A DNA stretch of 64,000 nt from Gracilibacillus orientalis (lineage in GTDB: Bacteria; Bacillota; Bacilli; Bacillales; Amphibacillaceae): positions 62,001 through 126,000 of the forward strand of contig NZ_FOTR01000008.1 in the NCBI RefSeq assembly GCF_900114645.1, written 5' to 3'. The position numbers and the translations under genes are program-made. Each line of letters begins with the position of its first letter. Positions within the stretch are counted from its first letter, which is position 1. Under the pieces are notes generated by a model, which was not told the origin of the DNA, ran no database searches, and saw only the letters and a list, made by a program, of their open reading frames with translations. Shown piece by piece: positions 30,528 to 45,962 of the stretch.

Positions 30528-30572
30528 GACTTCCAACAGTTGGGGTTTTAAGGACAATTAGCACCATGATAA
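30528..30572 (+). repeat. Short dispersed repeat with GGACAATTAGCAC
   Basis: AGACTTCCAACAGTTGGGG, TTTTA, then GGACAATTAGCAC and ATGATAAAG. The inverted copy at 38920-38962 and the partial copy at 12790-12822 share most positions. The CCAACAGTTGG / CCCCCAGTGGGG part followed by TTTTA is terminator-like. Confidence 0.5.
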
Positions 30573-30636
30573 AGAGTTAACGCTTGTGAAGTAAGTACAA
30601 TTTTGGAGTACAGATATTTTATAAAACATTATTTAA

Positions 30637-30771
30637 CAACAGAACGAGTATCAAACATCCGATCAATTAGTTCAAGCAATTGTGGAATATATCCATTTCT
30701 ATAATTTTGAGCGATACAAACAAAGATTAAACGACCTCAGTCCTGTGGAATACAGAACTAAGGCCGCATAA
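30637..30771 (+). pseudogene. IS3-family transposase (OrfB) C-terminal remnant
   Basis: The frame reads ...VEYIHFYNFERYKQRL then NDLSPVEYRTKAA and a stop, which is the characteristic end of IS3/IS150-group transposases. Only 44 codons remain; the catalytic DDE core and the start are missing, and an in-frame stop lies immediately upstream. It marks the pbuG-side edge of the zinc island. Gap 30201-30957 otherwise contains the pbuG leader and a possible 40-codon frame on the minus strand (about 30825-30947) that I could not assign. Confidence 0.8.
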
Positions 30772-30957
30772 ATCCTTGTATCTTTAGTCTTTAAAGTTCT
30801 ACTACTTCTACCAACATCAAACAGTATAGTCCTCTACAATAGGCAACAACATCACCATTTCATCTGCTAATTCGTAAATAGATAGTTTTCTTCTCAATCT
30901 TGAATTAGAAAAAAGTATGTTGTTGCTTTGATCATTCAACTACGTGCTCTTTTTAAA

Positions 30958-32634
30958 TTAATGCTCCATCATCTCATGGGCAATATCATGGCCGCTCATT
31001 TCTGATGGGTAGTAGGTTGGCCAGTTAGTGACTTCATCCAGTAAAGTCTCCCGATCATCTCCCCAATACAAGTGATAATGACCGGCTTCAGTCGGATAGA
31101 TACTATGATCACTAAATTGTATATACTGAGGAAGCCATTCAGCTTCTTCTGCTAGCTGAAATATGTATCTAACTCCTCTATTTCCCGCATCATACGTTAA
31201 AATTTCATAACCATCATAGGTATACTCTCCAGACTTTTCTTCACCATTCTTAAAGAAAGTTACTGTATTTCCTTCGATCAAGATACGGTCAACTTCTGTT
31301 TTATACCCCACCTCATAATATTCCTTATATTCTTCTGCTGTTTTATCTCCATTATGTTCTGCTTTATGGGCAAAAACCTCATCAAGCGTACCATCTTGAA
31401 GCAGTGGGTAAACAGATTGCCAGTCCCCTTCCCAATCAGAAAGTGAGCGATCCTTCACTTCGTTATCTTCGAAATATCCTTCATAAATTTTCACTGTTTT
31501 TTCGTCATGAGCATGGCTATGATCATGATTGTGTTCGTGTTCACTCTCTGACGTCTCAGTGGAGTCATCTGAAACTGCTGGAGGTTCAGATAAAGCTTTT
31601 GTTAAAACCTCTAAATTGGACTGCATGAGTGTTAAATAATCCTCATCGTTCTCTATATCTTCTTCCGTTAAAACAGATAAATTGTGAATGCGCAAAGTCT
31701 CCGCATCAATTTCTTTCCTAACAACATCTGCCACTTTAGGGGTTACATTCTGCTCAAAAAACACATATTTTAACCCATGTTTTTCTGCAATTTCTATGAT
31801 ATTTTGTAACTCTTTTTGTGAAGGTTCATTTGTTGGGCTTAAACCAGAAATAGGAATTTGCTCAATGCCATAGGACTGCTCCCAATACCCGTAAGCAGCA
31901 TGAGATACAATAATCTCATTTCCTGGTAAACTCTCAAGTTGCTCATGAAACTCTTTGTCTAAATTTTCAAGGTTTCCTTTAAGCTCTTCAAAGTTCTTAT
32001 TAAATGCCTCTTCTGAATCAGGCTGAAGTACTACAAGGGTATCCTTAATATTCTCAGCTAACCGAATAGAGCGAATTGGATCCAACCAAACGTGTGGATC
32101 TTTGTCTCCGTGATGATGTCCAGCATGCTCGTCTTCTTGATTGTCTTCTTCTCCCTCATGATCATGCTTGTGAATGTCCTCTTCTCCTTCGTGATCATGA
32201 TCGTGACTTTCCTCTTCTCCATGGCTATGGTCGTGAACGTGCTCTATAAAATCAATTCCTGTTGAAGCTTCTACTATTTTCACATCTTCGGATTGGATAG
32301 AATCTGAGATTTGTTTAGCATAAGGTTCTAAACCTGCTCCGTTATAAACGAAAGCGTCCGCTTCAGCAATTTTCACTATTTCTTCTGATGTTGGTTCATA
32401 GTTATGAGGATTTGAACCAGGTGGTAAGATTGACTCAACGGAAGCTTTATCTCCAGCAATCTGTTCAGCAAAATACTTAAGAGGATAAACAGTAGTATAT
32501 AATGTCAGATCTTCATTTGATTTCTGGAGATTGTCACTTGCTTCACCGCTTTTTCTACCTCCATCCTCATTACACGCAGCAATTACAAAAATTAGTGTGA
32601 ACAAAATTAAAATTCCTATTATTTTTTTAAACAT
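30958..32634 (-). CDS. adcA: Zinc ABC transporter binding lipoprotein AdcA with C-terminal ZinT domain
   Basis: 558-residue two-domain zinc receptor. Lipobox IAAC with Cys21; ZnuA-like cluster A-1 domain (residues about 40-345) with metal histidines around NPHNYEPT, DPHVWLDP and SHAAYGY; a His/Asp/Glu-rich loop (about 125-170) with many HDH repeats; a second His-rich linker (HEHNHDHSHAHDEK, about 360); and a ZinT/YodA domain to the end (IYEGYFEDNEVKDRSLSDWEGDW, EAGHYHLYWGDD). The fused ZinT domain is typical of AdcA. It has its own promoter with a perfect Zur palindrome 34 bases upstream, separate from the permease and ATPase genes. Confidence 0.93.
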   Translation of the reverse strand: MFKKIIGILILFTLIFVIAACNEDGGRKSGEASDNLQKSNEDLTLYTTVYPLKYFAEQIAGDKASVESILPPGSNPHNYEPTSEEIVKIAEADAFVYNGAGLEPYAKQISDSIQSEDVKIVEASTGIDFIEHVHDHSHGEEESHDHDHEGEEDIHKHDHEGEEDNQEDEHAGHHHGDKDPHVWLDPIRSIRLAENIKDTLVVLQPDSEEAFNKNFEELKGNLENLDKEFHEQLESLPGNEIIVSHAAYGYWEQSYGIEQIPISGLSPTNEPSQKELQNIIEIAEKHGLKYVFFEQNVTPKVADVVRKEIDAETLRIHNLSVLTEEDIENDEDYLTLMQSNLEVLTKALSEPPAVSDDSTETSESEHEHNHDHSHAHDEKTVKIYEGYFEDNEVKDRSLSDWEGDWQSVYPLLQDGTLDEVFAHKAEHNGDKTAEEYKEYYEVGYKTEVDRILIEGNTVTFFKNGEEKSGEYTYDGYEILTYDAGNRGVRYIFQLAEEAEWLPQYIQFSDHSIYPTEAGHYHLYWGDDRETLLDEVTNWPTYYPSEMSGHDIAHEMMEH

Positions 32635-32667
32635 CTTTTCTCCTCCTTTAATTCAACAAAAGATCAT

Positions 32668-32684
32668 ATCGTAATGATTACGAT
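32668..32684. promoter_or_regulatory. Zur box upstream of adcA
   Basis: ATCGTAATGATTACGAT, a perfect palindrome with the core TCGTAATNATTACGA of Bacillus Zur operators. Confidence 0.88.
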
Positions 32685-32867
32685 TTATACTTTAAAGATA
32701 GATAACCGTTATCTAAAAAAGAACTTGTCTCCAGACGGTATGGCCCTAATATTTGAATTATAGGACACGCCATTTGAAGTTTCTAATTTACATCCGTTTA
32801 CAAGGGTGTTTTTAATTTGCGAGATGATACCCTTTTGTTTTGCATTTGATTTGTTTGTTCGAAATCA

Positions 32868-33725
32868 TCATGCTCTTCTCTTTGTCCAAAAAAATTGTAT
32901 ACTTACCTTTTTAAGTGCTGTAGTCAAAATAAGAATAAGAATTGCTATCATCACAATGGTTCCACCAGGGGGGACACCTAGGTGATAAGCCGAAACTAAA
33001 CCGACAATAACAGAAATTTCACCAAATAATACCGACAAAACAATGGTTTGCTTAAAACTCTTAGTTATCCTTAATGCTGAAGCTACGGGTAATGTCATTA
33101 AGGCTGAAACAAGTAGAATTCCCACTACTTGCATAGAGGAAGCTATAACTAATGCTACCATTAAAATAAATAGAAGATGAATCCATTTTCCTTTAACACC
33201 TGAAACTGTGGCATGTTCTTCATCAAACGACAAAACAAATAATTCTTTGTAAAATAAGAATACGATGATGATTACAATACAAGTGATAAATAGTACTGTC
33301 CACATGTTTGAACGACTCACTGCTGCTACACTTCCAAACAGATAGCTAAATAGATCTGTGTTGAAGCCATCTGCTAGAGAAATTAAAAGCACTCCTAATC
33401 CTATACCTCCAGACAAGATAATAGGAATAGCTAACTCTTCATAATTTTTATACAATTTTCGTATCCATTCAATTAAAACTGCCCCTAAAACTGAAAATGC
33501 CATCCCCAAGAATACAGGATTCAAATCGTTTATTCCGGATACTTTCTTTTCTAGTAATAGACTGGCTGCAATTCCCGTTAATGTAATATGAGAAAGGGCA
33601 TCAGCAATTAAGGAGAGTCTACGAACAACAATAAAAACACCCAGTAACGGTGCAACCAAACCAATTAATATTCCTGTCATTGCTGCATTTTGCAAGAAAT
33701 CATATCTAAAAAAGGCTTCGAACAT
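32868..33725 (-). CDS. adcB: Zinc ABC transporter permease AdcB/ZnuB
   Basis: 285 residues, ABC-3 family with about eight membrane helices, beginning MFEAFFRYDFLQNAAMTGILIGLVAPLLG and containing RRLSLIADALSHITLTGIA and MQVVGILLVSALMTLPVASA. It overlaps the ATPase gene by one base and is the second gene of the operon from 34501. Works with AdcC and AdcA for zinc import. Confidence 0.93.
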   Translation of the reverse strand: MFEAFFRYDFLQNAAMTGILIGLVAPLLGVFIVVRRLSLIADALSHITLTGIAASLLLEKKVSGINDLNPVFLGMAFSVLGAVLIEWIRKLYKNYEELAIPIILSGGIGLGVLLISLADGFNTDLFSYLFGSVAAVSRSNMWTVLFITCIVIIIVFLFYKELFVLSFDEEHATVSGVKGKWIHLLFILMVALVIASSMQVVGILLVSALMTLPVASALRITKSFKQTIVLSVLFGEISVIVGLVSAYHLGVPPGGTIVMIAILILILTTALKKVSIQFFWTKRRA

Positions 33726-34501
33726 CAGGATGTCACCTCCACATAGTTATTACGGATTAATTGCTGATCCATGTGTTCATACGATGGCTTCAAATCCTGT
33801 TCATTGTATTGATTGTATTCATCGGAAGTTCCATGAAAACTTATAGTCTTATTCATGCAAGCTATGTGAGTCGCATGCTTCGTAATAGTATCTATATCGT
33901 GTGTGATCATAAGAAGAGTGATGCCAGTTTTTTTATTCAATCTGCCCAGTAAATCGTAAAAATCAGTGACATGCTTCGCGTCAATTCCCACTGTAGGCTC
34001 ATCAAGAATTAATAGTGATGGGGCACTAATCAGAGCTCGGGCAATAAATACTCTTTGCAATTGGCCACCTGACAGTTCTCCTATACTAGATCTCGCAAAT
34101 TCCTCCATTTCTACGACCTTTAACGCCTCCAAAGCTTTTTGCGTATGCTCACGTTTTAGAAAACGAAACATACCTAACCTAGAAACAAGCCCAGATTTCA
34201 CTACTTCCAAAACACTCGCTGGAAAGCCCGCGTTGAAACTGTTGGATTTTTGTGAAATATATCCAATTTCCTGCCAATTATTGAATCGTTTAATTAATTC
34301 ATTAAATACTTGAATACTTCCAACGGTAGGCTTAATGAGTCCAAGGATCAATTTAACCAAAGTAGATTTTCCAGAACCATTAGGTCCAATCAATGCAACG
34401 AATTGTCCCTTGTCTAATGAAAAATTCACATGCTCAACTGCCCACTCTTTTTCATACTTAAAAGAAACGTTTTTTACTTCTACAATTTTGCAATCACTCA
34501 T
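33725..34501 (-). CDS. adcC: Zinc ABC transporter ATP-binding protein AdcC/ZnuC
   Basis: 258 residues: Walker A GPNGSGKST, signature LSGGQLQRV, Walker B LLILDEPTVGID, and D/H loops. The ZnuC/AdcC group is indicated by its neighbours and by the Zur palindrome 17 bases before the start. The intergenic Zur box separates this operon from the upstream cobW gene. Confidence 0.93.
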   Translation of the reverse strand: MSDCKIVEVKNVSFKYEKEWAVEHVNFSLDKGQFVALIGPNGSGKSTLVKLILGLIKPTVGSIQVFNELIKRFNNWQEIGYISQKSNSFNAGFPASVLEVVKSGLVSRLGMFRFLKREHTQKALEALKVVEMEEFARSSIGELSGGQLQRVFIARALISAPSLLILDEPTVGIDAKHVTDFYDLLGRLNKKTGITLLMITHDIDTITKHATHIACMNKTISFHGTSDEYNQYNEQDLKPSYEHMDQQLIRNNYVEVTS

Positions 34502-34517
34502 TCTATCTCCTCCCCAG

Positions 34518-34532
34518 TAGTAATGATTACTA
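34518..34532. promoter_or_regulatory. Zur box upstream of adcCB
   Basis: TAGTAATGATTACTA, palindromic, with the TAATGATTA centre of the other Zur sites. Confidence 0.78.
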
Positions 34533-34565
34533 AAAGCCTATCGGTTCATTGAACTGTACTTTGTT

Positions 34566-35753
34566 TTAAATCTCACTATCGGTAAATGCCGGCAATGGAT
34601 CATGAAGTTTACTCCAATCCTGTTTCATCTCTTCATCTGTTAGCAAGCTTTGATCCAATCCCTTGATGATCTCTTCCTCATCCATATCGATGCCGATAAA
34701 CACCAACTCTGTCAAACGATCTCCATATTCGTCGTCCCAACGCCTGGCTAACTCTGGTTCTTTGCTCAAGACTTCCACTCTTTCCTGTTCAGGATAATTA
34801 GCGATCCACTCTCCTACACCTTGGATAGCAAGAGATGTTCCTGCCTGTGATAATAAACCAGACACCTCATTTCTTGAAGCTAACCAAAAGAACCCTTTGG
34901 CTCGAACAATACCTGCCGGCCAATTTTCTAACCATTTCATCCACCGTTCAGGATGGAACGGCCTCTTCCTTCGATAAACAAAGGAGTAAATACCGTATTC
35001 CTCACTTTCAGGAACGTGTTCCTCATTTAATTCTTTGATCCATCCTGCTCCCTGACTTACTTTTTCAAATTTAAATAATCCCGTATTCAATACAGAGTCC
35101 AGCGGAACCCTGCCATAAGTAGTATCGATAATATGAGTTTCAGGGTTTAATTGCTTCAGAACTGCTGTTAATGCTTCTTTATCGATGTTTTTTACTAAAT
35201 CCACTTTATTTAAAAGGAGAACGTTTGCGAATTCAATTTGATCAATTAAAAGGTCAATTACTTCTCTAGCATCTTCCTCGTCTGCCCCTTGACTACGATC
35301 GAGTAAGCTTTCTCCTGATCCATAATCCTCCCAAAAACAACTTGCATCTACTACTGTCACCATGGTATCCAATCGACAATACTGATCAAGGTTGATTCCA
35401 AGCTCTTTGTCTTCATAAGTGAAGCTTTGAGCAACAGGGATTGGCTCTGATATCCCAGTCGATTCAATCACAATATAATCGATATCCAGCTTGGAAAGCT
35501 CCGCTACCTCTTTTATTAAATCCTCCCTTAAAGTACAGCAAATACAGCCGTTCTGTAGTTCGACCAGCTTTTCTTCAGTACGGCTGAACCCGCCTTGTTT
35601 CACCATATCAGCATCTATGTTGACTTCACTCATATCATTCACGATCACGGCTATTTTAAGATCCTCTCTATTGTGTAACAAATGATTTAATAATGTGGTT
35701 TTTCCTGACCCCAAATAACCACTTAGTACGGTAACTGGTATTTTATTTTTCAA
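34566..35753 (-). CDS. COG0523 (CobW/ZagA/YciC) zinc-related GTPase, copy 1
   Basis: 395 residues. G1 [10 protein letters not shown] at 11-20, the COG0523 metal motif CICC at 70-73, [15 protein letters not shown], and a CobW C-terminal domain with [16 protein letters not shown]. Very like the second copy at 37709-38899 in layout and length. Homologues of the YciC/ZagA group are Zur-controlled zinc metallochaperones; ZagA supports FolE under zinc limitation in B. subtilis. TTG start with TTAGGAGGG upstream, 11 bases after the flavoprotein gene. Last gene of the long operon from 41744. Confidence 0.9.
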
Positions 35754-35764
35754 TTTTTTCCCTC

Positions 35765-36907
35765 CTAAGCGTTTTGCGCAATACGTTCAGCTACTTTTCT
35801 TGCCCCTGCTATATTTCTAGATACAGGGCCGATTTCCAGTTCAGCAAGAGTACCAGCAACAAATAGTCCTCGTGTCCATTCTAATGAAGGTTGAACTATT
35901 GGGAAACCGCAAGGTGAACAGGGGAGATCCAATTGTTCAATCACAGGTTGCAACCACTTTTCGCCTGGTATGTTTGTCTCTGTCCCCGTAGCAAGTAGCA
36001 AAGAATGAGCTGAAATGATCTTACCATTCGTTAATAAGAGTTCCACAGAATTATCTCTACTTTGAGCATCCTCAATTTCACCTGTATAGAAGTTCAGCCT
36101 GCCCGCGTTCTCTTGTCGTTTTAATTTCAGATAAAGTTCTCTTGTTAAAGAACCCCGGTGTCTTGCTTGTCGGATAAGTCTTCGCCGTTTCTCATAGCAA
36201 TCGACTTGATGAAAATTTCTAAGATATTTTGGACCTAACCAGCCAGGATCACTATCAAAGTCATGAATCCGAAAAGGATGGCGTTTCACCAACGTAACTG
36301 AGTGAATAGTTGAAAGAGTATAAGAAAGGTGCGCTGCTGTCATACCCCCGCCTAAGATGACAACATCTCCCTCATCAGGAAGAGATGCCTCTATATCAAA
36401 CACATGACTTATAGACCCCTTACTGCATTTAAAGACCCAGTCCGGGTAATGTGGTTTTTGGTTCATGCCCATAGCAAGAACAACTCGTTCTCCTTGAATC
36501 ACTTGATTATTGGATAGTGTTACTTTCCACTCCCCTCCAGAACAGGAAAGTCCCTCCACTGTTCCTTGTTTCCAACATTCTTGCACGCCTACCTCGTCCA
36601 TTTTGTCCAAGCTGTGCTGATTAAACATATCCAAACGTGGCCTCGCATATCTCCCTTTGAATGGTTGAGCATAGTCGTTTGATCGTGCGTATTTCTTTAA
36701 GCTGAATGGATCTATAGCTATATGATGGACCGATGGAGATCTTAAATAAGACATGCCGATTTTTTTCGTCAATGTTCGCCATATCTGCATTGGCTCTGGA
36801 TAGGAATCAATAATCAAAAGATCAGCTTTGTTGACTTTTTCTAGTAGCAGGCGAGTGGCCACACAGCACCCCTGAACCCCTCCACCTATAATGATCCACT
36901 TATACAT
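35765..36907 (-). CDS. FAD/NAD(P)-binding oxidoreductase of unknown substrate (first flavoprotein)
   Basis: 380 residues, two dinucleotide-binding motifs: [14 protein letters not shown] near the N terminus for FAD and [14 protein letters not shown] near residue 185 for NAD(P)H; the closing [10 protein letters not shown] and [25 protein letters not shown] are typical of flavin monooxygenase-like proteins (SidA/CzcO-like). Cysteine pairs occur at CSPCG. It sits between two COG0523/dCTP deaminase genes in the Zur-controlled operon. The role is unknown; a link to metal handling is inferred only from the context. Confidence 0.8.
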
Positions 36908-37140
36908 ATAAACACACTGCCCTTTCTTTTTTATCAGCTTGATTTTTTCACACTAGGGATTTACCTTTTAGCGTATATTTCTAAAAGCAATCCGAGACAG
37001 GTTGATTTTCACCTATATCCCCGAGACCTGCCTGTAAAACATGATGATGAAAAATCACTGAATGGATAACTCATTTCGCCTCTAGCTCTTTTCGTAGTTC
37101 GGCATCTTGTTATACTAATTAATTTAAGTTCAGAAAATGA

Positions 37141-37692
37141 TTACTCTTCCTCCTCTTTGTCTTGATCCATATACACCCGACTAGGTGTAGCACCCTCTTG
37201 AAATAAATACTTTCCACTATAACCTTCGGTAGCTTGATCAATTTGTGCTATAACCAATTGACACACTCGCATACCGACTTTTAATTGCACAGGAACACGA
37301 TTTGCATTAAATAACTCTAAAGTGATCTGGCCGGAGAAGCCCGGATCGATCCATCCAGCATTTTGAATAAACACACCAAGCCTTCCGATAGAACTTCTCC
37401 CTTCAACAAAGGCCGTTAAATTGTCAGGTAAACGAATTTGCTCAAATGTTGTTCCTAACATAAAAGTTTTAGGCGGAATCGTGATAACTTCTCCCTCCAT
37501 TACTTGCATTTCATGATAATTTGCCGGCTTGTTGACTGATAATAAAGTGGTAGACATGTCATCTACTACTAAGAAATGCTTTCCTAAACATAGATCAATG
37601 GACGCTGGTTGTATGCTAAAATCCTTATAAGGAGTAATAGAAATTCGTTCATCATATATGAATTGTTTAATCGTTTGTCCTGATAAAATCAC
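37141..37692 (-). CDS. dcd: dCTP deaminase
   Basis: 183 residues with FSIQPASIDLCLG, the substrate loop EGRSSIGRLGVF and AGWIDPGFSGQITLEL, in which the Glu is the catalytic residue of dCTP deaminases. It needs no zinc for catalysis, unlike dCMP and cytidine deaminases. Some family members also cleave dUTP; this could not be decided here. GTG start with CAGGAGTGAG upstream, 16 bases after the second COG0523 gene. Its presence within a zinc-starvation operon suggests it supplies dUMP when zinc-dependent deaminases fail (inference). The 233-base gap to the next gene has no Zur box. Confidence 0.88.
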   Translation of the reverse strand: MILSGQTIKQFIYDERISITPYKDFSIQPASIDLCLGKHFLVVDDMSTTLLSVNKPANYHEMQVMEGEVITIPPKTFMLGTTFEQIRLPDNLTAFVEGRSSIGRLGVFIQNAGWIDPGFSGQITLELFNANRVPVQLKVGMRVCQLVIAQIDQATEGYSGKYLFQEGATPSRVYMDQDKEEEE

Positions 37693-37708
37693 CTGTTCTC
37701 ACTCCTGA

Positions 37709-38899
37709 TTATGAAATTCGCCAATTGAATGGATTTCTGAATTGTGACCAGTCTTCCTCCATCTCTGACTCCGTTAATAGACAACGATCTAGCTCACTAG
37801 TTATCTCCTCAACCTCCAAGTCCATCCCGATGAAAACAAGCTTTGTATGGCGATCTCCATATTCAGGATCCCATAAATCTTTGACTTCAGGATTATTCTT
37901 TAAAATTTCCTTTTGCTGTTCTATTGGTAATGAATCGACCCAATAGGCTAATGGTTCAACAGCTACTGATGGACCAGCTTGCGATAACAATAAAGCCATA
38001 TCATAATGAGTCGCACACCACATCACACCTTTTAACCGAACAATTTCTTTCGGTAGATCTTGATACCAGCTCATTAATCGTTCCGTGTGAAAAGGCAGTC
38101 TTGATGTATAGATGAACGAACTAATTCCGTACTCCTCTGTTTCCGGGGTATGATTTTCTACTCCAGCATTGAGTTCCTTCAACCAACCTGCTGATTCACT
38201 AGCTTTCTCAAAGTCAAATAAACGAGTATTTACTATTTCTTTTGGATCTACCTTACAATGTTGGGTTCGGATAATTTTCGCTTCAGGCTGTAACTTACGT
38301 ATGACTTTCTCTAACTTCTGAAAATCTTCCTCTTTCACTAAATCTGTTTTATTCAAAATAAGAACATTACAGAATTCAATTTGGTCAAGTAATAAATCGG
38401 CAATATTGCGCGTATCTTCTTCACCCACTGCTTGTTGCCTTTCCAGTAAGCTGTCTCCTGAACCGAAGTCATGCCAAAAGCGATTAGCATCGACAACTGT
38501 AACCATCGTATCCAAGCTGCAATATTTCGTTAGATCAATTCCCATCTCTTCATCAATGTAAGAGAAGGTTTGTGCAACTGGGACAGGCTCACTTATTCCG
38601 GATGACTCAATCAAAATATAATCAACATCACCTTTTTTCACGAGACTTTCCACTTCCACCAATAAATCCTCTCGTAATGTACAGCAAATACAGCCATTAG
38701 ACATTTCCACTAATTTTTCTTCGGTACGGGAAAAACTGCCTTGTGATTGAACTAGCTCACTATCAATATTTACTTCACTCATGTCATTGACAATCACTGC
38801 CACCTTCAGGCCTTCTCGATTATGTAAGACATGATTCAATAACGAAGTTTTTCCAGCACCTAAATATCCACTTAGTACAGTTACAGGGATTTTTTTCAT
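37709..38899 (-). CDS. COG0523 (CobW/ZagA/YciC) zinc-related GTPase, copy 2
   Basis: 396 residues; SGYLGAGKTS at 10-19, [30 protein letters not shown], and the CobW C-terminal domain ending TKLVFIGMDLEVEEI. It is a clear paralogue of copy 1 (same indel pattern, same EEYGI(S/Y)SF segment), so tandem expansion within the island is likely. Positioned between the FeoB-like gene and dcd. Confidence 0.9.
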   Translation of the reverse strand: MKKIPVTVLSGYLGAGKTSLLNHVLHNREGLKVAVIVNDMSEVNIDSELVQSQGSFSRTEEKLVEMSNGCICCTLREDLLVEVESLVKKGDVDYILIESSGISEPVPVAQTFSYIDEEMGIDLTKYCSLDTMVTVVDANRFWHDFGSGDSLLERQQAVGEEDTRNIADLLLDQIEFCNVLILNKTDLVKEEDFQKLEKVIRKLQPEAKIIRTQHCKVDPKEIVNTRLFDFEKASESAGWLKELNAGVENHTPETEEYGISSFIYTSRLPFHTERLMSWYQDLPKEIVRLKGVMWCATHYDMALLLSQAGPSVAVEPLAYWVDSLPIEQQKEILKNNPEVKDLWDPEYGDRHTKLVFIGMDLEVEEITSELDRCLLTESEMEEDWSQFRNPFNWRIS

Positions 38900-38919
38900 T
38901 TATTACTCCTCCTTTTTGT

Positions 38920-38962: not shown

Positions 38963-38964
38963 CT

Positions 38965-40638
38965 TTATGATAAAAAATATAGTCCTGCAGCAAGGAAAGC
39001 TGCACTAACAACACTTGTCAGCATTTGCTTTAATCCAATTGATAAAGCGTTCTTCCAACTTAGTTCTCTGCCGATAGTAAATAACGTAACAAGGCAAGCT
39101 GATAGTGTTGATGCTAAGTAAACAAGAATAAATATTTGACTGATTGACATATCCATTAACAAACTGCCCTGCCCCTCATTTAAGACAAGTAATCCATCCT
39201 TTCTAATAAAGGAAAAGATCAATCCAGGTGCTGCATCTGTTGGTAATGAAAATAGATATAATAACGGCATTGCAAGCCAACTCAAAATGGATAATCCCCC
39301 TACTGTTTCTAGTACAGATGCAATCAAACAAATCAACAAGAAAATCGGCATAGCTTGAAGTAAAAATTGTTTAATCACGCCAGAAACCTTCCACCAAAAT
39401 GAACTCCAATTGATTCCTTGTAAATAAGGTAAGGGGGCAATTCTAGTTAGCTCATTAGTGGTGTTTCTGTTCCAAATCCTTGTATGAATAGCTCCGACTA
39501 CAAATAGTAAAAACAAATACGGAATAAATAGAAAAGGAACATGAGCTGCATTGAAAATAGATAAAGTTGCTCCAATTTGATAACTGCAGGCTGAACCAAA
39601 AGCAAGCATGGAAACACAAGATACTCGGGTGCAGCTGCTACAGCTTCTGCTTTGCATGACTGCGACAACATTACAACCAAAACCAGTGATAACAGGAAGC
39701 AAGTCTCTCCCTGTTAATCCGATTTTACGAAGCCATGGATCTAACGCATTTGTTAAGTGTTCTTGTATACCTATCTCTTCTGTAATAGTTGTAGTTATGC
39801 TGATCATTAAAACAACAGGAAAAGCCCATAGAAATGAATACCAACCTAAAGTGATGACTCCATAATCACCTATCAATACATTCGCTAAAAAAGCTGGTAT
39901 CTGCTCCAACCATACAATTATCGGCGTAAGCAAATATTGCTCTGTAATCGGTTCGAACCAACTGACAAATAAGTAGGCTGCAAATACTGGCAAGGCAAAC
40001 ATAGCCATGATAATAAGACAAACTAATATTGGACCTACTACCCTCAAACGGAACATCGGAATTAGTTTATTAACAGGAATAGGTGTTGAAGGCAGAAAGC
40101 TAACAATACTTGTAGTAACAGCCCAAATCCTGGCTTGCTCGATACATGTGATTACTTTTTCTTGTTCTTCCTGATCCATCTTTCTGGCATTAATCCAGAC
40201 AACTGGTACTTGTAATAGCTCTTGTACTCTTTTTTGTTCAGCATTAGAAGGCTGGTATTTATCCTGGTGAGTTGCAACAATAGCTACTTGTTTACCTTTC
40301 AAATTCAATTCTTTCTGCAGCTGGGTTAACTCCTCTTTCAGTTCCGTTGCCTTCACAACTAATAGTAGGGTTTGTTCCCCCTCTAAACGATCTAAAGTAA
40401 GTTGAGTACTTTTACTGTCCATATCGAATTGAAGTCCTGGCAAGTCTGTTAATCGTATATTATTGTTTAATTTACAGGTTGCAGTTAAGGCAGCTATTGT
40501 TGTCCCTTTTACACTGCTTGTCAACGCTCGCTTTTCGCCAGTCAAATGGCGGAACAAACCTGATTTCCCAACAGATTCACAACCTACTAGCACCACATCT
40601 ATTGGATGGGCAAGGGCAGATTGCACGCTTTCTAGCAT
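38965..40638 (-). CDS. Divergent FeoB-like GTPase-transporter in a Zur-controlled operon
   Basis: 557 residues from the ATG at 40638 (GAGAGGTG upstream). N-terminal G domain: G1 GCESVGKS at 19-26, G3 DLPGL, and THQD where NKxD is usual; then about eight membrane segments with two Gate-like regions (GFGCNVVAVMQSRSCSSCTR and ASVLETVGG...). The first Gate has extra cysteines (CSSC, RVSC, GSAC). It is shorter than FeoB (about 650-700) and overlaps the flavoprotein stop by 7 bases. No FeoA or FeoC gene is nearby. The genomic setting suggests import of zinc or another metal under zinc starvation; this is inference. Confidence 0.82.
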   Translation of the reverse strand: MLESVQSALAHPIDVVLVGCESVGKSGLFRHLTGEKRALTSSVKGTTIAALTATCKLNNNIRLTDLPGLQFDMDSKSTQLTLDRLEGEQTLLLVVKATELKEELTQLQKELNLKGKQVAIVATHQDKYQPSNAEQKRVQELLQVPVVWINARKMDQEEQEKVITCIEQARIWAVTTSIVSFLPSTPIPVNKLIPMFRLRVVGPILVCLIIMAMFALPVFAAYLFVSWFEPITEQYLLTPIIVWLEQIPAFLANVLIGDYGVITLGWYSFLWAFPVVLMISITTTITEEIGIQEHLTNALDPWLRKIGLTGRDLLPVITGFGCNVVAVMQSRSCSSCTRVSCVSMLAFGSACSYQIGATLSIFNAAHVPFLFIPYLFLLFVVGAIHTRIWNRNTTNELTRIAPLPYLQGINWSSFWWKVSGVIKQFLLQAMPIFLLICLIASVLETVGGLSILSWLAMPLLYLFSLPTDAAPGLIFSFIRKDGLLVLNEGQGSLLMDMSISQIFILVYLASTLSACLVTLFTIGRELSWKNALSIGLKQMLTSVVSAAFLAAGLYFLS

Positions 40639-41744
40639 TGACACCTCTCCCCACACATCGAAAGATCATCAAGATAGAAGTTCTCACGTTTGTACTCTTC
40701 TAATATGGATAAATCTAAGCCTAACTCTTGACCAATCGTTTCTGCTATGACAGAAAAGCGCTGGCGGAATTTGTAAATATAACAAAAAATATGGTCATCG
40801 TGGCGAAGTTCCGGTCCAGCTAAAAATAAACCAGGAGTCGTTATAGCTTCATCTTTTTCATTGACAAGAACTTCGTCATGCTTACCACGTGTCACTAGAT
40901 TTTCTATCGTCGTTGTGCTACCTGAGAAACCACTAGCTAATATTGGTCTCTCCATTGTAAAATAAACTTTTCCACTACTCGTATAGACGTCATACCCTGA
41001 GGGTACTGCTTCCATTCGTGTCACTGCTGTATTGCCTACACTCATTAATAAGTCGGAATCAAGCAAGTGACGAATACGACCATATGTATAGGTTGACAGG
41101 GCAATACTTGGATCACTATTGTCTAGCTCCCACGTATTCGTTTTAGCTATTACAGTCGTTTTTTTACCTAAACGTCCTAAATGAAATGCGGCATCCATAC
41201 CACTTTCATAACCTCCGATGATAATAAAGTCATCACCTTCTAGCTCTCGCCAAGATGGAATCAAGCTATTGTGCACGCCAAGCTCTGCACCTGGGAAGGG
41301 CTTTAAATCGGGATATTGGTATTGCCCTGCTGCCCAGATAACATAGCGACTTCGATATGTCCCTTGGGTAGTATCTATCAAAAAAATACCATCTTTTTTA
41401 TGGATTTGATCTACTTGTACTCCTTTTTCAATAGGAAGCGTAAAATGATCTGCCACTATATCTAGATAATCTGCATATGCTTCACCAGTAGGATGTTCCA
41501 TATCTAACGTATAAGCTGGCGAAGATTTCGGTACAATGGCATTTAAATCTGTCTGTCCAAACCCCTGCGCTGGAAACGAGGGTGTTATAAATCTCATTTC
41601 CTTAGGCCAACGCAGAAAAGATGCTCCTACTTCTTCTTTTTCTAATACCAAATAGGAAGTACAATTCATTTGTTGTAATAAAGCGGCGACACCAATTCCC
41701 GAAGGTCCTGCTCCTACAACAATGACATCATATACTTTACTCAT
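40632..41744 (-). CDS. FAD/NAD(P)-binding oxidoreductase with Cys-rich tail (second flavoprotein)
   Basis: 370 residues from the ATG at 41744; the ATG at 41747 is only 3 bases after the AAGAGGTG ribosome binding site. FAD motif VVVGAGPSGIGVAALLQQ, NAD(P) motif FIIIGGYESGMDAAFHL, closing TTPGLFLAGPELRHDDHIFCYIYKFRQRF. The last residues CGERCQC could bind a metal or form disulfides. Resembles YpdA/CzcO-type pyridine nucleotide-disulfide oxidoreductases. First gene of the operon that continues into the FeoB-like, COG0523 and dcd genes; a Zur box lies 17 bases upstream. Function unknown. Confidence 0.82.
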   Translation of the reverse strand: MSKVYDVIVVGAGPSGIGVAALLQQMNCTSYLVLEKEEVGASFLRWPKEMRFITPSFPAQGFGQTDLNAIVPKSSPAYTLDMEHPTGEAYADYLDIVADHFTLPIEKGVQVDQIHKKDGIFLIDTTQGTYRSRYVIWAAGQYQYPDLKPFPGAELGVHNSLIPSWRELEGDDFIIIGGYESGMDAAFHLGRLGKKTTVIAKTNTWELDNSDPSIALSTYTYGRIRHLLDSDLLMSVGNTAVTRMEAVPSGYDVYTSSGKVYFTMERPILASGFSGSTTTIENLVTRGKHDEVLVNEKDEAITTPGLFLAGPELRHDDHIFCYIYKFRQRFSVIAETIGQELGLDLSILEEYKRENFYLDDLSMCGERCQC

Positions 41745-41758
41745 CATTACCACCTCTT

Positions 41759-41779
41759 AAATCATAATCATTACGATTT
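41759..41779. promoter_or_regulatory. Zur box upstream of the flavoprotein-FeoB-cobW-dcd operon
   Basis: AAATCATAATCATTACGATTT; centre differs by one base from a perfect palindrome. It lies between the third COG0523 gene and the second flavoprotein gene. Confidence 0.82.
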
Positions 41780-41793
41780 ACATCGCAAAAAAA

Positions 41794-42759
41794 TTAAGCA
41801 AGACAATATTGGAAACCTCTCTCTAATTCCTGATAGTCGAGATTCTTCCCAATAAATACTATCTCACTTTGCCGCTTTTCATTATTCGCCCATTTAAAAC
41901 CTTCAGTACCTGCAAATAACATATGTACACCTTGAAAAACAACTCTTTTATTAAGGTGTTTTATATAGAGCACTCCTTTATAACGATATAATTGTTCTCC
42001 TTTAAACTGGACTAAATAGGAGAACCATTTATTTACTTTTTCTAAATCAAGCGGACGATCGTCTCGAAAAACAAAAGATGTGACTTGATCATTATGATGA
42101 TGGTGATGTGTTTCCACTAATAGATTTGGATCTATTTTTAATATATTACCTAATTCAAAGGATTTTTTCCCTATTAAATCTTGGCTATCTATATCTGCAT
42201 ATGTAGTGTAAATCCGTTTTGCATGTGGATTCATGTTAATCAATTGTTGTGCCAGCTCGTTTTTTTCATCTTCCGTAATCAAATCCATTTTATTTAATAG
42301 CAGAACATCAGCAAAAGCGATTTGTTGCCCAGGTTCTTCTTCTTTTAAATGTTGCCAGATATGCTTGGCATCGACCATCGTAATCACACTATCCATTTCG
42401 AATGATTTTGCTGTTTGTTCATCCATTAAAAAAGTTTGAATAACTGGGGCTGGATTAGCCATACCTGTTGTCTCAATGACAATACGATCTATTTTTTCTT
42501 CCTGTTCGATCAAATTACTTAAGATGTTAATTAAATCACCTCGTACATTACAACAAATACAACCACTGTTTATTTCAATGATTTCTTCCTTTGTTGATAC
42601 CACCAAATGACTATCAATAGATGTGTCACCAAATTCATTGATGATGACAGCAACTTTTTGTTCAGGTATGTCCTTTAATAAGTTATTAAGCAATGTTGTT
42701 TTACCTGCACCCAAAAATCCAGTTAAAATGGTTACCGGTATGGTGTGTTCTTTTGACAA
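41794..42759 (-). CDS. COG0523 (CobW-family) GTPase, copy 3, with His-rich segment
   Basis: Start set at the TTG at 42759, where GGAGGG precedes by a good distance; this gives MSKEHTIPVTILTGFLGAGKTT. 321 residues, shorter than copies 1 and 2 and of a different subgroup (CICCNVRGDL, ETTGMANPAPV, NKMDLI). A run of His (THHHHHNDQ, about residue 210) is a typical metal-binding loop of COG0523 proteins. It follows rpsN by about 115 bases from the start codon chosen here, probably in the same Zur-controlled transcript. Confidence 0.88.
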   Translation of the reverse strand: MSKEHTIPVTILTGFLGAGKTTLLNNLLKDIPEQKVAVIINEFGDTSIDSHLVVSTKEEIIEINSGCICCNVRGDLINILSNLIEQEEKIDRIVIETTGMANPAPVIQTFLMDEQTAKSFEMDSVITMVDAKHIWQHLKEEEPGQQIAFADVLLLNKMDLITEDEKNELAQQLINMNPHAKRIYTTYADIDSQDLIGKKSFELGNILKIDPNLLVETHHHHHNDQVTSFVFRDDRPLDLEKVNKWFSYLVQFKGEQLYRYKGVLYIKHLNKRVVFQGVHMLFAGTEGFKWANNEKRQSEIVFIGKNLDYQELERGFQYCLA

Positions 42760-42874
42760 CAGGCTTTCCCTCCTCTTGCTATGTACAACTAAATTTTTAG
42801 TCAAAGAATAGGACAGGAACAACACTTCAAGATGCCCCTGTTACTTATTTTAATTCTTCAAACTTGATAAACTC

Positions 42875-43144
42875 TTACCAACTAGATTTCTTCACGCCAG
42901 GTATTTGTCCTTTATGAGCATAGTCTCTAAAGGCAATACGGGACATATTGAATTTCCGCATGTAGCCACGCGGTCTTCCTGTAAGCTCGCAACGGTTTTT
43001 TAAGCGAGTTGGTGAAGAGTCCCGTGGCAATTTACGAAGCGCTTCATAATCACCTTTTGCTTTTAACTCTTTTCTTAATGCTGCATATTGTTCAACCATT
43101 TTCTGGCGTTTTTTCTCTTTTGCAATTTTAGACTTTTTAGCCAT
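42875..43144 (-). CDS. rpsN: Ribosomal protein S14, zinc-independent paralogue
   Basis: 89 residues, long C-minus form of S14 ([19 protein letters not shown]...[22 protein letters not shown]). It lacks the CxxC...CxxC zinc ribbon of the housekeeping 61-residue form. Such C-minus paralogues replace the zinc-binding S14 during zinc starvation, releasing zinc from ribosomes. The promoter is flanked by two Zur palindromes, which fits that role. RBS AAGGGAG upstream. Confidence 0.95.
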
Positions 43145-43197
43145 TTGATCTTACTCCCTTCGATCATTAGAATTTACCTCTATATTCAAATAACTTT

Positions 43198-43271
43198 TAA
43201 ATCGTAATGATTACGTATTACATATCATTATAGGATACTATTACTGAAATGTAAATAGTAATGATTACGAT
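43198..43271 (-). promoter_or_regulatory. rpsN promoter between two Zur boxes
   Basis: Minus strand: -35 TTTACA (about 43250-43255), 17-base spacer, -10 TATAAT (43227-43232). One Zur palindrome (TAGTAATGATTACGA, 43256-43270) overlaps the -35 side and another (ATCGTAATGATTACGT, 43201-43216) lies downstream of the -10, bracketing the promoter. Confidence 0.85.
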
Positions 43272-43351
43272 TTATTGCTTGGTTGGTATTACATCATCTA
43301 AAGCTTTCTCGGGGATAAAAAAATGGTTTTGCAAGAATGACCTTTTTCCAA

Positions 43352-43762
43352 CTACACTCTGCATCCATCACAATAGCCATAAACCTCAAATTTATGATGT
43401 GTAATAGTAAAACCTTCAGGAGTATTAGATATAACATCCATTGGGCACATATTTATATTTTTCGTTGCACCACAATCAGCACAAATGATATAGTGATGAT
43501 GCTCATCTGAATTTTTAAAGCGATAATGTTTATTTCCTTTTAATTCTGTTGATTCTATAATATTAAGTTCTTCAAATAATTTTATATTACGGTAGATCGT
43601 ATCTACACTTAAATAGGGATAATCCTTAACGATTAATTTTAAAATGTCTTTGGCAGATAAATATCGGTTTTCTTCAACGAATATTTCCAACATTCTTTCT
43701 CTTCTCCTTGTTAATTTATACCTTTCCTTCTTCAAAATATTTAATACATCAGAAATATTCAT
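43352..43762 (-). CDS. zur: Fur-family zinc repressor, probable Zur
   Basis: 136 residues: N-terminal winged helix (LTRRRERMLEIF, LSVDTIYRNIKLFEELNI) and a C-terminal dimerisation domain with His-rich segment DEHHHYIICADCG and two cysteine pairs, CADC and CDGC, forming the structural zinc site typical of Zur/Fur. Its place among seven Zur-box-like sites makes Zur the most likely member. No Zur box precedes its own start, so it may be constitutive. Confidence 0.88.
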   Translation of the reverse strand: MNISDVLNILKKERYKLTRRRERMLEIFVEENRYLSAKDILKLIVKDYPYLSVDTIYRNIKLFEELNIIESTELKGNKHYRFKNSDEHHHYIICADCGATKNINMCPMDVISNTPEGFTITHHKFEVYGYCDGCRV

Positions 43763-43828
43763 TAAAAATCTCCTCTCTACTCTTCTCAGAAACCTTTACA
43801 TCTCAACACATTCCGCAAATTGAATGTG

Positions 43829-44005
43829 TCAACGGTCATATGATATACAGATTCCTTTATCTGTTTGAGGAATGGTTAGATCACAGTATCTATTAATTAG
43901 GAAAGTTGGAATACCTGCACATTCCAAATCATCCGGTTCAAATCCAAAAACACCATAGGTTACAAGCAAATCAGCTTCTGTACCAATAATCAGCTCATGA
44001 GACAT
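43829..44005 (-). pseudogene. Fragment resembling an iron/B12-type ABC substrate-binding protein
   Basis: In-frame minus-strand stretch just after the stop of the hydrolase gene reads SHELIIGTEADLLVTYGVFG, EPDDLECAGIPTFLIN and stops after 58 codons. The pattern 'NPDLLV.Y' and 'L...GIPTF.I' is like the FecB/BtuF periplasmic-binding fold (residues about 90-140 of a normal protein). No signal peptide, no remaining domain. I infer a decayed metal or siderophore receptor; the family call is tentative. Confidence 0.4.
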
Positions 44006-44020
44006 ATCTGTTGTAGCACT

Positions 44021-44812
44021 TTAATCATTCTGAAGAACAATTGGAATCCATTCCCATCTGCCACTTTCTTCCCTTACATACCCTAGTCCTGGAAAAGGAT
44101 AGTGGCAAGCAAATACTAGAGCTTTTCTATCCACTGTATCTTGTAAGAACTTTCTTCGGGTTTCTAACCCTTGTCGAGGTGAAACCTCCGCACGAATATG
44201 AGAAGGAAGATATTGCAAAGTTCTCGGGTCATTTAATATATCGGAAGCCACCAATAAAGATGTTCCTTCCGAATGGATATAAAGACACAGATGTCCGACT
44301 GTATGTCCTGGAGCATGAATGAGATAAATACCTGGAAAAATTTCCACATCTGATGTAATCAAAGTTATTCGATCTTCTACATCCTTTAGTTTCCGACATT
44401 CATTGGACTGTGGATGATTTTCCCAGAAATCCCATTCTTCTTTTCGCATGATATATTCTGCATTAGGAAAAACTGGTTTTCCATTATTAGAAAGTCCTCC
44501 AATATGATCCATATGTGCATGTGTTATAATGATTGTATCAATATCTTCTGGATAAATTCCTTGTGTTTTTATATGATTAAGCAATTGACCAGCTGTTGAT
44601 AGGGTTTTTCCAAATCCAACATCTACTAATATCTGCTTATCTCCTGTATCAATATGTAAAAAATTTAATGGTGCATCAAAGTTGGGTGGAATGTCTTGAA
44701 TAATGTCCTCTGGTGTGTTAGCAAAAAAGAATTCCTTTGAAACTGGAAAAGCACCATCCGATATGGACATCAATTTTAGTGTTCCTAGTTGAAACGTATA
44801 TAGTTTAGACAT
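44021..44812 (-). CDS. Metallo-beta-lactamase-fold hydrolase (lactonase-like)
   Basis: 263 residues. Zinc motif THAHMDHIGG near residue 98, plus HAPGHTVGH, the Asp of VASDILND and a late His in FACHYPFPG complete the binuclear metal site. The size and order of motifs match N-acyl-homoserine lactonase-like MBL proteins. It is 43 bases downstream of the SufU-like gene, so the two form an operon. A zinc enzyme inside a zinc-starvation island is unusual; its substrate is not evident. Confidence 0.85.
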   Translation of the reverse strand: MSKLYTFQLGTLKLMSISDGAFPVSKEFFFANTPEDIIQDIPPNFDAPLNFLHIDTGDKQILVDVGFGKTLSTAGQLLNHIKTQGIYPEDIDTIIITHAHMDHIGGLSNNGKPVFPNAEYIMRKEEWDFWENHPQSNECRKLKDVEDRITLITSDVEIFPGIYLIHAPGHTVGHLCLYIHSEGTSLLVASDILNDPRTLQYLPSHIRAEVSPRQGLETRRKFLQDTVDRKALVFACHYPFPGLGYVREESGRWEWIPIVLQND

Positions 44813-44855
44813 TAGTAACTCCTCCTTACTAATCTTATAAGTATTATTGAGTAAA

Positions 44856-45296
44856 CTAGAAAAAAGTGTACTCTTTTGTATCTTTCAATATTTTATCTAA
44901 AGCTTGCCATGTCATTAATGCACAATTATGTCTTGCTTTTAACCGGTGGACCCCTTGCAATGATAGACTATCCCCTAAGTCAACCTTATCTGGTTCTTCA
45001 CCATGGCGGATTAAATCTTCAAATCCTTGTCTTAGAGAAGCAACTTCTATTAATGGTTTATTTTTGATCAATTCTGTCATCATAGATGCAGAAGCCATAC
45101 TAATACTACAACCTTCACCAAGGAAGGTCGCTTTTCTTACTCGATCATCTTCCAGATCTAAAAATAAAGTCATAACATCGCCGCAAGTCGGGTTTTTATA
45201 GTGAACCTTTAAAATATTTTCTCCTTCTATTTCTTCAAAATTTCGCTTATATTTATAATGATCCATAATCACTTTTCGGTATAAGTCATCAAGCAT
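44856..45296 (-). CDS. SufU/IscU-like Fe-S scaffold or zinc-dependent sulfur acceptor
   Basis: 146 residues, IscU fold (LYRKVIMDHYKYKRN). The SufU residues are all kept: Cys and Asp in NPTCGDV, Cys in GEGCSISMASASMM and Cys in RHNCALM; B. subtilis SufU binds zinc with these. The SufU-type insertion between the second and third Cys appears present (LRQGFEDLIRHGEEPDKV). It stands away from any suf operon, so it is probably a second copy. Upstream lie the rpsN remnant and two Zur boxes, from which it may be transcribed. Confidence 0.85.
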   Translation of the reverse strand: MLDDLYRKVIMDHYKYKRNFEEIEGENILKVHYKNPTCGDVMTLFLDLEDDRVRKATFLGEGCSISMASASMMTELIKNKPLIEVASLRQGFEDLIRHGEEPDKVDLGDSLSLQGVHRLKARHNCALMTWQALDKILKDTKEYTFF

Positions 45297-45656
45297 TATG
45301 AACTCTTCCCCCTTCGTTGTGAGTGATCTTCAATCAACTTTCTTTATCCTAAGTATTTGATAATTGTTTCTTTTCAAATGAATACTTACCTCTTTTCAAT
45401 TTCAATTACTTTGATACTCTAAATACTCTTTCTTTGTCTTTAGAAATACCTGAATTAATACTTAACATACCTTGAAGCATTGGTCCCGAAAGAGTGGCTA
45501 CTTTCTATGTATAATCCTCATCGACAAGAAGTGATTAATAAGACAAGTTGCTTCCATATTACTCAAATCCCATGTCGCCATTATAAAAACCCCCAAACAT
45601 TATAATTAATTTCATATTGTTATAGACCCAACAGATTTATGGAATATGTGCTCTGC

Positions 45657-45758
45657 TTACAAACTTACTAATCCTCCTATTACCTTTAGCTCTTTTCTCA
45701 TGCCAACACATTGTACATGTATTTTCTTCTCTTTTGAGAATTTAAAGTTTTTAGCCAT
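45657..45758 (-). pseudogene. Decayed second copy of zinc-independent rpsN
   Basis: The minus-strand frame reads MAKNFKFSKEKKIHVQCVG then MRKELKVIGGL and stops at codon 34. It aligns with the start of the intact S14 ([19 protein letters not shown]...LRKELKAKG). The remainder is frameshifted or lost. The upstream region has the same two-Zur-box promoter geometry as the intact gene. Hence the rpsN module was duplicated and one copy decayed. Confidence 0.75.
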
Positions 45759-45808
45759 TCAAAACTTACCCCTTACTATTATCAGCTATCCAAAGAAATC
45801 TTTATTTC

Positions 45809-45882
45809 AAATCGTAATCTTTTCGATTTAAGTAATATTATAAACCATTAAAGCTAAAAAATAAATAGTAATGATTACGATT
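45809..45882 (-). promoter_or_regulatory. Relict rpsN promoter with two Zur boxes
   Basis: Minus strand: Zur palindrome TAGTAATGATTACGA (45866-45880), then TTTATT, 17 bases, TATAAT, then the degenerate box ATCGTAATCTTTTCGAT (45811-45827). Box spacing (about 54 bases) matches the intact rpsN promoter at 43198-43271. It could now drive the SufU-like and MBL genes. Confidence 0.75.
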
Positions 45883-45962
45883 TATGTATTGTATAATACT
45901 ATAAATTTGTTCGCGCGTTGACCATTTTTGTAAAGGATGGGACAGGAGTAGTCGATTTACGA

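Follow-up and report, generated by a model that had tools for sequence, protein, structure and literature searches.

Composition of the zinc block

The window analysed here is a 64,000-nucleotide stretch of Gracilibacillus orientalis (contig NZ_FOTR01000008.1, positions 62,001 to 126,000) from a genome of 4.6 Mb in 29 contigs. Between guaA (46362-47909) and pbuG (28899-30200) it carries 14 intact genes, all on the minus strand (Table 1). They encode the zinc-uptake system AdcABC, three COG0523 GTPases, an S14 protein, a putative second Zur-type repressor (Zur2), a dCTP deaminase (Dcd), a second SufU-like protein (SufU2), a metallo-beta-lactamase (MBL)-fold hydrolase, two flavoproteins (FadA and FadB) and a FeoB-like permease (FeoL). 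The labels fadB, feoL, fadA, sufU2 and zur2 were coined in the present analysis. The genes form five units, each with one or two Zur-type sites in front, and their spacing suggests that transcripts are shared within a unit. A first-pass annotation of this DNA had described a 15-kb zinc-starvation island with seven Zur-type palindromes; the genes that it named are present in the block on the minus strand, and all seven palindromes were found. In all likelihood the block is a composite zinc-starvation island under Zur control that serves a zinc programme. The fadB-feoL pair at its core is apparently unstudied.

Zur-type sites in the block and in related loci

The 15-mer TCGTAATnATTACGA was used as Zur-type operator pattern, with the reversed pattern as control. 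Within the block the palindromes start at 32667, 34518, 41760, 43200, 43254, 45810 and 45864, those at 34518 and 45810 having two mismatches. On one strand of the whole genome, 45 sites with at most two mismatches were counted, against 62 for the control. Single sites of this quality mean little because the control count is higher, and weight was placed on sites with at most one mismatch and on recurrence across loci. Seven of the 45 genomic sites are in the 15-kb block; at the density of the remaining 38, spread over 4.6 Mb, a stretch of this length should hold about 0.12. When one mismatch was allowed at most, eight sites remained in the genome, five of them inside the block. The other three precede an operon of adcC, adcB and a Fur-family gene on contig C12, which we take to be the canonical Zur operon, an S14 gene on contig C11, and a PF03773 permease/DUF1980 pair on contig C6. 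Paired sites are 53 bp apart on C11; in eight relatives the distance is 51-54 bp, and in G088 it is 102 bp.

Recurrence was assessed in 43 of 46 distinct feoL loci (G208, G357 and G410 were left out), by scanning from -2500 to +120 of the start of fadB or feoL. A site with at most one mismatch occurred 5' of fadB/feoL in 35 loci (reversed control 0), and one with at most two mismatches in 40 (control 1), where loci of one genus do not count as independent. G463 and G372 were entered as lacking sites since their split genes broke the start rule; sites are visible upstream on inspection. Elsewhere in these loci, over 696 kb, the one-mismatch limit gave 8 sites (control 0) and the two-mismatch limit 17 (control 5). 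Genes for S14, FolE2, COG0523 proteins, CysS and DksA recur beside the operon, which together with the upstream sites strongly supports the earlier zinc reading.

The site on C6 (255000-265000) is located between the PF03773 permease/DUF1980 gene and a gene for a transporter-like protein of 485 amino acids (aa). This locus is likely to be a further zinc-regulated pair.

The FadB-FeoL pair

FeoL homologs were found in 22 of 159 genomes of the family (E ≤ 1e-80) and in 23 of 398 Bacilli genomes (E ≤ 1e-60). FadB was searched separately (E ≤ 1e-45) and occurred in the same 23 genomes, on the same contigs and adjoining feoL. The FeoL protein of the window shares 91% identity with that of G. suaedae; one match (L027, 32% over 87 residues) was disregarded. 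The search that gave these two matches returned seven full-length loci from named organisms, four of which were judged to be already among the family genomes. Directly upstream of FeoL, FadB was present in 41 of the 43 loci, and in 39 of these 41 the two open reading frames (ORFs) overlap by 1 to 71 nt if the longest-ORF starts are used. FadB and FeoL form a nearly inseparable, zinc-linked pair in the Bacilli, and they occur together also on the enterobacterial and haloarchaeal plasmids inspected.

Loci of the Amphibacillaceae type mostly have the order (S14)-(yjiA)-fadB-feoL-(zigA2)-dcd-zigA1, with local changes. In G131 and G129 only the pair is found, with or without a binding-protein gene. 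The folE2 gene comes next after the pair in G313 and is nearby in G353. The order dcd-S14-fadA-zigA1 of G073 is that of the window, in which the corresponding S14 gene is a remnant. Several further features of these loci were observed. CobN-like chelatase genes lie 5' of the feoL operon in several relatives (L060 2094-5759, L182, L021, L023 and L069; one was confirmed with Pfam), some with ChlID-like partners as judged by eye. In G003 a siderophore-type ABC system is located behind its own pair of Zur-type sites. In G463 an ORF of 408 aa, by eye a transposase, interrupts feoL, and a Zur-type site is kept 5' of the fadB fragment.

A search of plasmid records with FeoL gave 544 matches (E ≤ 1e-5), of which 520 cover at least 80% of the query. 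Klebsiella accounts for 499 matches, all at less than 60% identity. Four records were inspected, from Klebsiella, Halocatena, Paenibacillus and Staphylococcus arlettae. On the Klebsiella plasmid the pair is found among genes for carbonic anhydrase, FolE2, CysS and a single-cysteine DksA, and the same stretch encodes two COG0523 proteins (one annotated as zigA) and two Fur-family proteins; Dcd is absent from the 15.6 kb inspected. The Halocatena plasmid carries a COG0523 gene divergent from FadB, S14 and FeoL, and the order on the Paenibacillus plasmid is COG0523, S14, FadB, FeoL. In S. arlettae a COG0523 gene and a zinc ABC binding-protein gene diverge from FadB and a short FeoL. When an enterobacterial Zur consensus was applied to the Klebsiella stretch, the best sites had 4 mismatches (before dksA) and 7 mismatches (one of them before fadB), with 7 for the best control site. 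Zur-type sites on this stretch are thus only suggestive.

The FeoL protein has 563 aa and consists of a FeoB_N-like G domain, in which by eye G1 and G3 are kept and G4 is degenerate, and two Gate domains. The G domain with G1 and G3, the two Gate domains and the GxGCN motif resemble the ferrous iron transporter FeoB. FeoL differs from FeoB in its shorter length, in a CxxC-C cluster, in its near-obligate flavoprotein partner and in a score below the cut-off of the FeoB model TIGR00437 (92.4 bits against 315.65). It also lacks the FeoB_C domain (PF07664): among 24 full-length members, with the short forms of family f25 kept outside the set, Gate was found in all, FeoB_N in 23, and FeoB_C in none at family matches with E 0.01. 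No FeoB_C match was present anywhere in the source genome. Every one of the 41 aligned Bacilli proteins has the GxGCN motif together with C328, C339xxC342, C347, C357, C443 and C521. In a set of 24 proteins to which those of Klebsiella and Halocatena were added, C347 and C443 lose full invariance. In family f25, seven of the eight FeoL proteins examined have only 444-454 aa; they lack the G domain and keep the membrane core, and the eighth (G284) retains the G domain. Since these short forms persist without a G domain, GTP hydrolysis is probably not essential for FeoL.

FadB is a flavoprotein with two dinucleotide folds (PF13738). Its last seven residues read CxxxCxC in 40 of 40 aligned Bacilli homologues, and a fourth invariant cysteine is located at position 324. 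The FadB alignment was made without the split gene of G463, the FeoL alignment without those of G463 and G372. The same tail is found in FadB of Klebsiella, Paenibacillus and S. arlettae; the Halocatena protein ends in CxxxxCxC. Of the solved structures, 3d1c matches window FadB with E 1.7e-72 and shares the tail. The depositors of this chain, presumably from Staphylococcus aureus, named it a putative flavin-containing monooxygenase. Reductases of the Bdr/YpdA type come next among the solved relatives (1e-26). The YpdA/Bdr bacillithiol disulfide reductases are distant flavoprotein relatives that differ from FadB by the C-terminal CxxxCxC tail, which FadB owns, and FadB does not reach the cut-off of the corresponding model TIGR04018 (84.9 bits against 339.9). 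Matches to disulfide reductases in general were below cut-off. A C-terminal cysteine tail is reminiscent of mercuric reductase; the profile match of FadB to that enzyme is weak and was seen in only 4 of 23 members. In public records FadB is named 'NAD(P)/FAD-dependent oxidoreductase' and FeoL 'nucleoside recognition domain-containing protein' or 'ferrous iron transporter B'.

A dCTP deaminase in an operon with a Zur-type site

The dcd product scored 183.3 bits against TIGR02274, well above the cut-off of 92.8. Its best solved matches are 4xjc (1.6e-65), 2qxx (9e-31) and 1ogh (4e-24), with the E. coli enzyme 1xs1 at 6e-17. We take 4xjc to be the bifunctional enzyme of Bacillus halodurans and 2qxx to be a dUMP-forming one; 1ogh is named bifunctional and dUMP-forming in the database match. 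Dcd matches the dUMP-forming enzymes better than the one from E. coli. From these bifunctional dCTP deaminase-dUTPases it differs by its position in an operon with a Zur-type site and zinc chaperones.

Dcd was detected in 16 of the 398 Bacilli genomes (E ≤ 1e-30), 11 of which also have FeoL. A Fisher test of co-occurrence, which treats the two sets of 398 genomes as identical and is uncorrected for kinship, gave p 6e-12; the true weight of the association is lower because six of the 11 genomes are from one genus. A COG0523 gene adjacent to dcd, a neighboring Zur-type site with at most two mismatches, or both were seen in 13 of the 16 genomes. Pfam confirmed two of the more distant COG0523 neighbors; the others were assigned by BLASTP to the window copies. 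In G385 dcd is found beside sufU2 and a ferredoxin-like gene instead.

Bifunctional dCTP deaminases make dUMP from dCTP without zinc. A single dCMP deaminase of the ComEB kind was assigned by eye in the source genome; it carries the zinc motifs HAE and PCxxC. From the properties of the enzyme family, it is likely that Dcd serves as a zinc-sparing bypass of the zinc enzyme ComEB. If true, DNA precursor synthesis would be added to the functions shielded from zinc loss, and there would be a possible reason why some Bacilli retain two routes to dUMP. In the open-licence PMC literature, as far as its text was accessible, no zinc role of dCTP deaminase was found; likewise that literature yielded nothing on Zur together with dCMP deaminase under zinc limitation and no work on the Bacillus halodurans dCTP deaminase.

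Proposed response to zinc starvation and alternatives

A low cellular zinc level would cause Zur, and with it the putative second Zur, to leave the operators, by which the five promoter units would open. Zinc import by AdcA-ZinT with AdcBC and the replacement of S14 are known biology. In the block, the former would raise zinc uptake and the S14 protein that lacks the zinc site would take the place of the zinc form in new ribosomes. Dcd would convert dCTP straight to dUMP without zinc, and therefore thymidylate synthesis would become independent of ComEB. FadB and FeoL would act as one two-component unit for metal uptake and delivery. Zn(II) may pass through the FeoL permease along a thiolate path which the GxGCN motif, the CxxC motif and further conserved cysteines line or guard, and FadB would keep thiols reduced via NAD(P)H and FAD. 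The CxxxCxC tail of FadB may then accept the metal at the cytosolic face and hand it over to the COG0523 GTPases.

For this combined explanation, a Zur-controlled island with a Dcd bypass and a FadB-FeoL uptake and delivery unit, we estimate a probability of about 0.6. For the part that makes FadB-FeoL a zinc importer and delivery pair, the odds appear even. More tentatively, the pair may represent a zinc uptake and delivery system of a new class, shared by Bacilli, Enterobacteria and haloarchaea. Its FeoB-derived permease would no longer depend on GTP hydrolysis, and its flavoprotein, through the thiolate tail, would link metal entry and handover to the redox state of NAD(P)H. If FadB-FeoL does move zinc, it would be an overlooked metal uptake route, and the solved chain 3d1c would gain a testable role.

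A number of observations weigh against this explanation. The FeoL G domain is degenerate in G4 or, in most f25 proteins, missing, which leaves the energy source doubtful. Halocatena FeoL has a threonine at the third position of the cysteine cluster. The AlphaFold models of FadB and FeoL are poor (pLDDT 52 and 41.5), and because of this the thiolate path has no fold support. Pairing is not complete: FadB is missing upstream of FeoL in two Shouchella genomes, and the fadB-feoL genes are split in G463 and G372. For Dcd, neither a COG0523 gene nor a Zur-type site was present within 1.5 kb in G376 and G445, and in several f25 genomes the only site beside dcd is of the two-mismatch kind. The genome-wide scan at two mismatches was dropped as proof of Zur control, its count not exceeding that of the control. 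Finally, SufU2 keeps the zinc ligands of SufU; the idea that it is a zinc-free replacement was rejected on this ground, and not every island gene is thus zinc-sparing.

FeoL may instead import iron, cobalt or manganese that replaces zinc in tolerant enzymes, with FadB keeping the metal reduced. We regard this as unlikely. FeoL is nearest to a ferrous transporter in its G and Gate domains, CobN-like genes adjoin feoL in several loci, and a flavin reductase suits a redox metal better than zinc. However, feoL is preceded by Zur-type sites (the scan having used the Zur-type pattern only), the invariant CxxC and cysteine clusters suit a thiophilic metal, and the neighbors are zinc-handling or zinc-sparing proteins. 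Even less probable is that the pair is no importer at all and serves to mobilize or export metal, or to transport a metallophore or, with its Gate domains, a nucleoside, FadB being an N- or S-oxygenase. The name of the solved FadB relative as putative flavin monooxygenase, the sub-cut-off matches to disulfide reductases and the naming of Gate domains after nucleoside recognition would fit such a role, but metal handling is indicated by the invariant cysteines of the tail and by the strictness with which FadB is paired with a FeoB relative. The loci showed no obvious gene for metallophore synthesis, although no search aimed at such genes was made.

It is very improbable that the genes of the island accumulated by chance at a hot spot of insertion, the extra ones being passengers that have no role in zinc starvation. 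The guaA-pbuG interval is indeed interrupted in 6 of 13 relatives, in three by non-zinc genes, and remnants and an IS3-like fragment are present in the block. Against chance, the operon order and the Zur-type sites are kept in differing genomic contexts in several families.

Relation to known zinc regulons

The Zur regulon of B. subtilis, as named in the accessible text of PMC5007448, includes znuACB, yciC, rpsNB, folEB, zinT and rpmEB. Like that regulon, the island combines a zinc ABC importer and ZinT with a COG0523 protein and an S14 protein that needs no zinc, all under predicted Zur control. Among the six operons named there, no Dcd, FadB, FeoL, FadA, SufU2 or second Zur is included. The B. 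subtilis regulon is moreover spread over several operons, while the present genes form one island. A cluster on the Klebsiella plasmid pLVPK was marked as Zur-regulated (Haas 2009, PMC2770081), and FeoB, dCTP and nucleoside-recognition terms are absent from the main text of that paper. The cluster on the inspected Klebsiella plasmid, where COG0523, FolE2, DksA, CysS, carbonic anhydrase and Fur-family genes accompany FadB-FeoL, may be of the same kind. In Vibrio, the VSP-II genomic island also carries Zur-regulated genes (PMC8248653, whose title names chemotaxis and congregation genes); this likeness is one of description only. The first-pass annotation had proposed that the programme was not described as one unit, and no such description was found in the open-licence PMC literature to the extent that its text was accessible; a mention of the FadB-FeoL pair in papers on FeoB and Zur is possible. 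A search of that literature for Zur with a nucleoside-recognition protein likewise gave nothing.

The guaA-pbuG interval and probable mobility of the operon

The earlier proposal that the whole block had been inserted between pbuG and guaA was followed up by comparison of this interval across relatives. Both genes could be resolved in 13 of 16 congeners; G005 and G015 were at contig edges and G008 gave no guaA. The two genes are within about 1 kb of each other in seven genomes (G012, G011, G006, G010, G013, G004 and G001), which include the nearest relative by guaA (G012). They are separated in the other six, by zinc genes in three and by other genes in three. The interval of G014 spans about 19 kb and includes sufU2, zur2 and a zinc ABC system, that of G007 contains zinc ABC genes, and that of G003 has the feoL operon inside 42 kb. 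The intervals of G002, G009 and G016 hold other, non-zinc genes. The interval is, on these gene orders, a hot spot that collects zinc genes. The proposal that the whole block is an insertion is borne out only in part: the interval varies within the genus, and three other members carry zinc genes in it.

A further observation qualifies the proposal. In G012 and G014 the feoL operon is situated elsewhere, behind a siderophore-type ABC cluster. The matching place in the source genome has, on the upstream side, the same genes (five neighboring proteins with 85-92% identity), a site pair and an S14 copy (96% and 92%). On the downstream side other genes follow, and then one (G014) or two (G012) shared genes. 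Because the source genome keeps only the site pair and S14 between the flanks of the G012/G014 operon, the operon body has probably moved within the lineage, in a direction that we can only infer.

Other features of the block

The remaining features are given in Table 1.

Table 1. Features between guaA and pbuG, in order of transcription; positions refer to the window.
Feature	Unit	Position	Strand	Evidence
Zur-type site pair	1, promoter	45810..45882	-	2 and 1 mismatches, 54 bp apart
S14-like remnant, weak	1	near 45.7 kb		E 0.06-0.5
Ferredoxin-like remnant (by eye)	1	45409..45590	-	tblastn 56% over 43 aa, E 8e-9
sufU2, second SufU-like gene	1	44856..45296	-	TIGR01994 above cut-off
MBL-fold hydrolase, lactonase-like	1	44021..44812	-	PF00753
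zur2, putative second Zur-type Fur-family repressor	1	43352..43762	-	PF01475
Zur-type site pair	2, promoter	43200..43272	-	54 bp apart
S14 without zinc CxxC pairs	2	42875..43144	-	NF006477 above cut-off; zinc-type NF005974 just below
COG0523 GTPase, YjiA type	2	41794..42825	-	PF02492, PF07683
Zur-type site directly 5' of fadB	3, promoter	41760..41778	-	1 mismatch
fadB, FAD/NAD(P) flavoprotein, C-terminal CxxxCxC tail	3	40632..41753	-	PF13738
feoL, FeoB-like permease, overlaps fadB ORF	3	38965..40656	-	PF02421, PF07670
zigA2, COG0523 GTPase, ZigA-like, copy 2	3	37709..38899	-	NF038288 504 bits
dcd, dCTP deaminase, resembles bifunctional dUMP-forming type	3	37141..37692	-	TIGR02274 above cut-off
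Remnant of second S14 gene	3	36930..37120	-	blastx E 0.001; live S14 at same place in G073
fadA, second FAD/NAD(P)-binding protein	3	35765..36907	-	PF13454
zigA1, COG0523 GTPase, ZigA-like, copy 1	3	34566..35753	-	NF038288 525 bits
Zur-type site 5' of adcC	4, promoter	34518..34532	-	2 mismatches
adcC, zinc-uptake ABC ATPase	4	33725..34501	-	PF00005; best NCBIfam zinc AztA, below cut-off
adcB, zinc-uptake ABC permease	4	32868..33725	-	PF00950
Zur-type site 5' of adcA	5, promoter	32667..32685	-	perfect 15-mer
adcA, zinc-binding lipoprotein, C-terminal ZinT domain	5	30958..32634	-	PF01297, PF09223

The S14 protein had been called cysteine-free; the zinc CxxC pairs are absent as implied, but one cysteine remains. 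The Fur-type repressor was confirmed as a PF01475 protein and can be refined to a probable second Zur. Zur2 is 50% identical to the Fur-family protein of the presumed Zur operon. It passed no curated model, and the highest-ranked NCBIfam match was a Fur model. Among 156 family genomes a close copy (76%) was found only in G014, the other matches being at 44-52%. The zigA1 and zigA2 products, which match over the full length, are near the ZigA family and below the NF038288 equivalog cut-off of 600.

The main sufU gene is located elsewhere in the source genome, and SufU2 is 88% identical to its counterpart between guaA and pbuG in G014. Neighbors of sufU2 are a ferredoxin-like gene and dcd in G385, dcd in G404, and a ferredoxin-like gene and zur2 in G014. 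The ferredoxin-like gene, a remnant in the window, is intact beside sufU2 in G014; it had no match in a Pfam search. A relative of the MBL-fold protein (49%) adjoins dcd and folE2 in G353, and FadA relatives in G073 (53%) and G011 (68%) are both within zinc loci. Past the MBL gene, a remnant frame at 43870-44000 resembles by eye the end of a metal-siderophore substrate-binding protein; it did not match the binding protein of G003. A defence-system reading was dropped, the PADLOC matches being weak and partial only. Beside pbuG a C-terminal fragment of an IS3-type transposase was recognized by eye on the plus strand (30560-30960, three-frame translation), and an endospore appendage gene (Enas, PF13157) at 28097-28705 adjoins pbuG.

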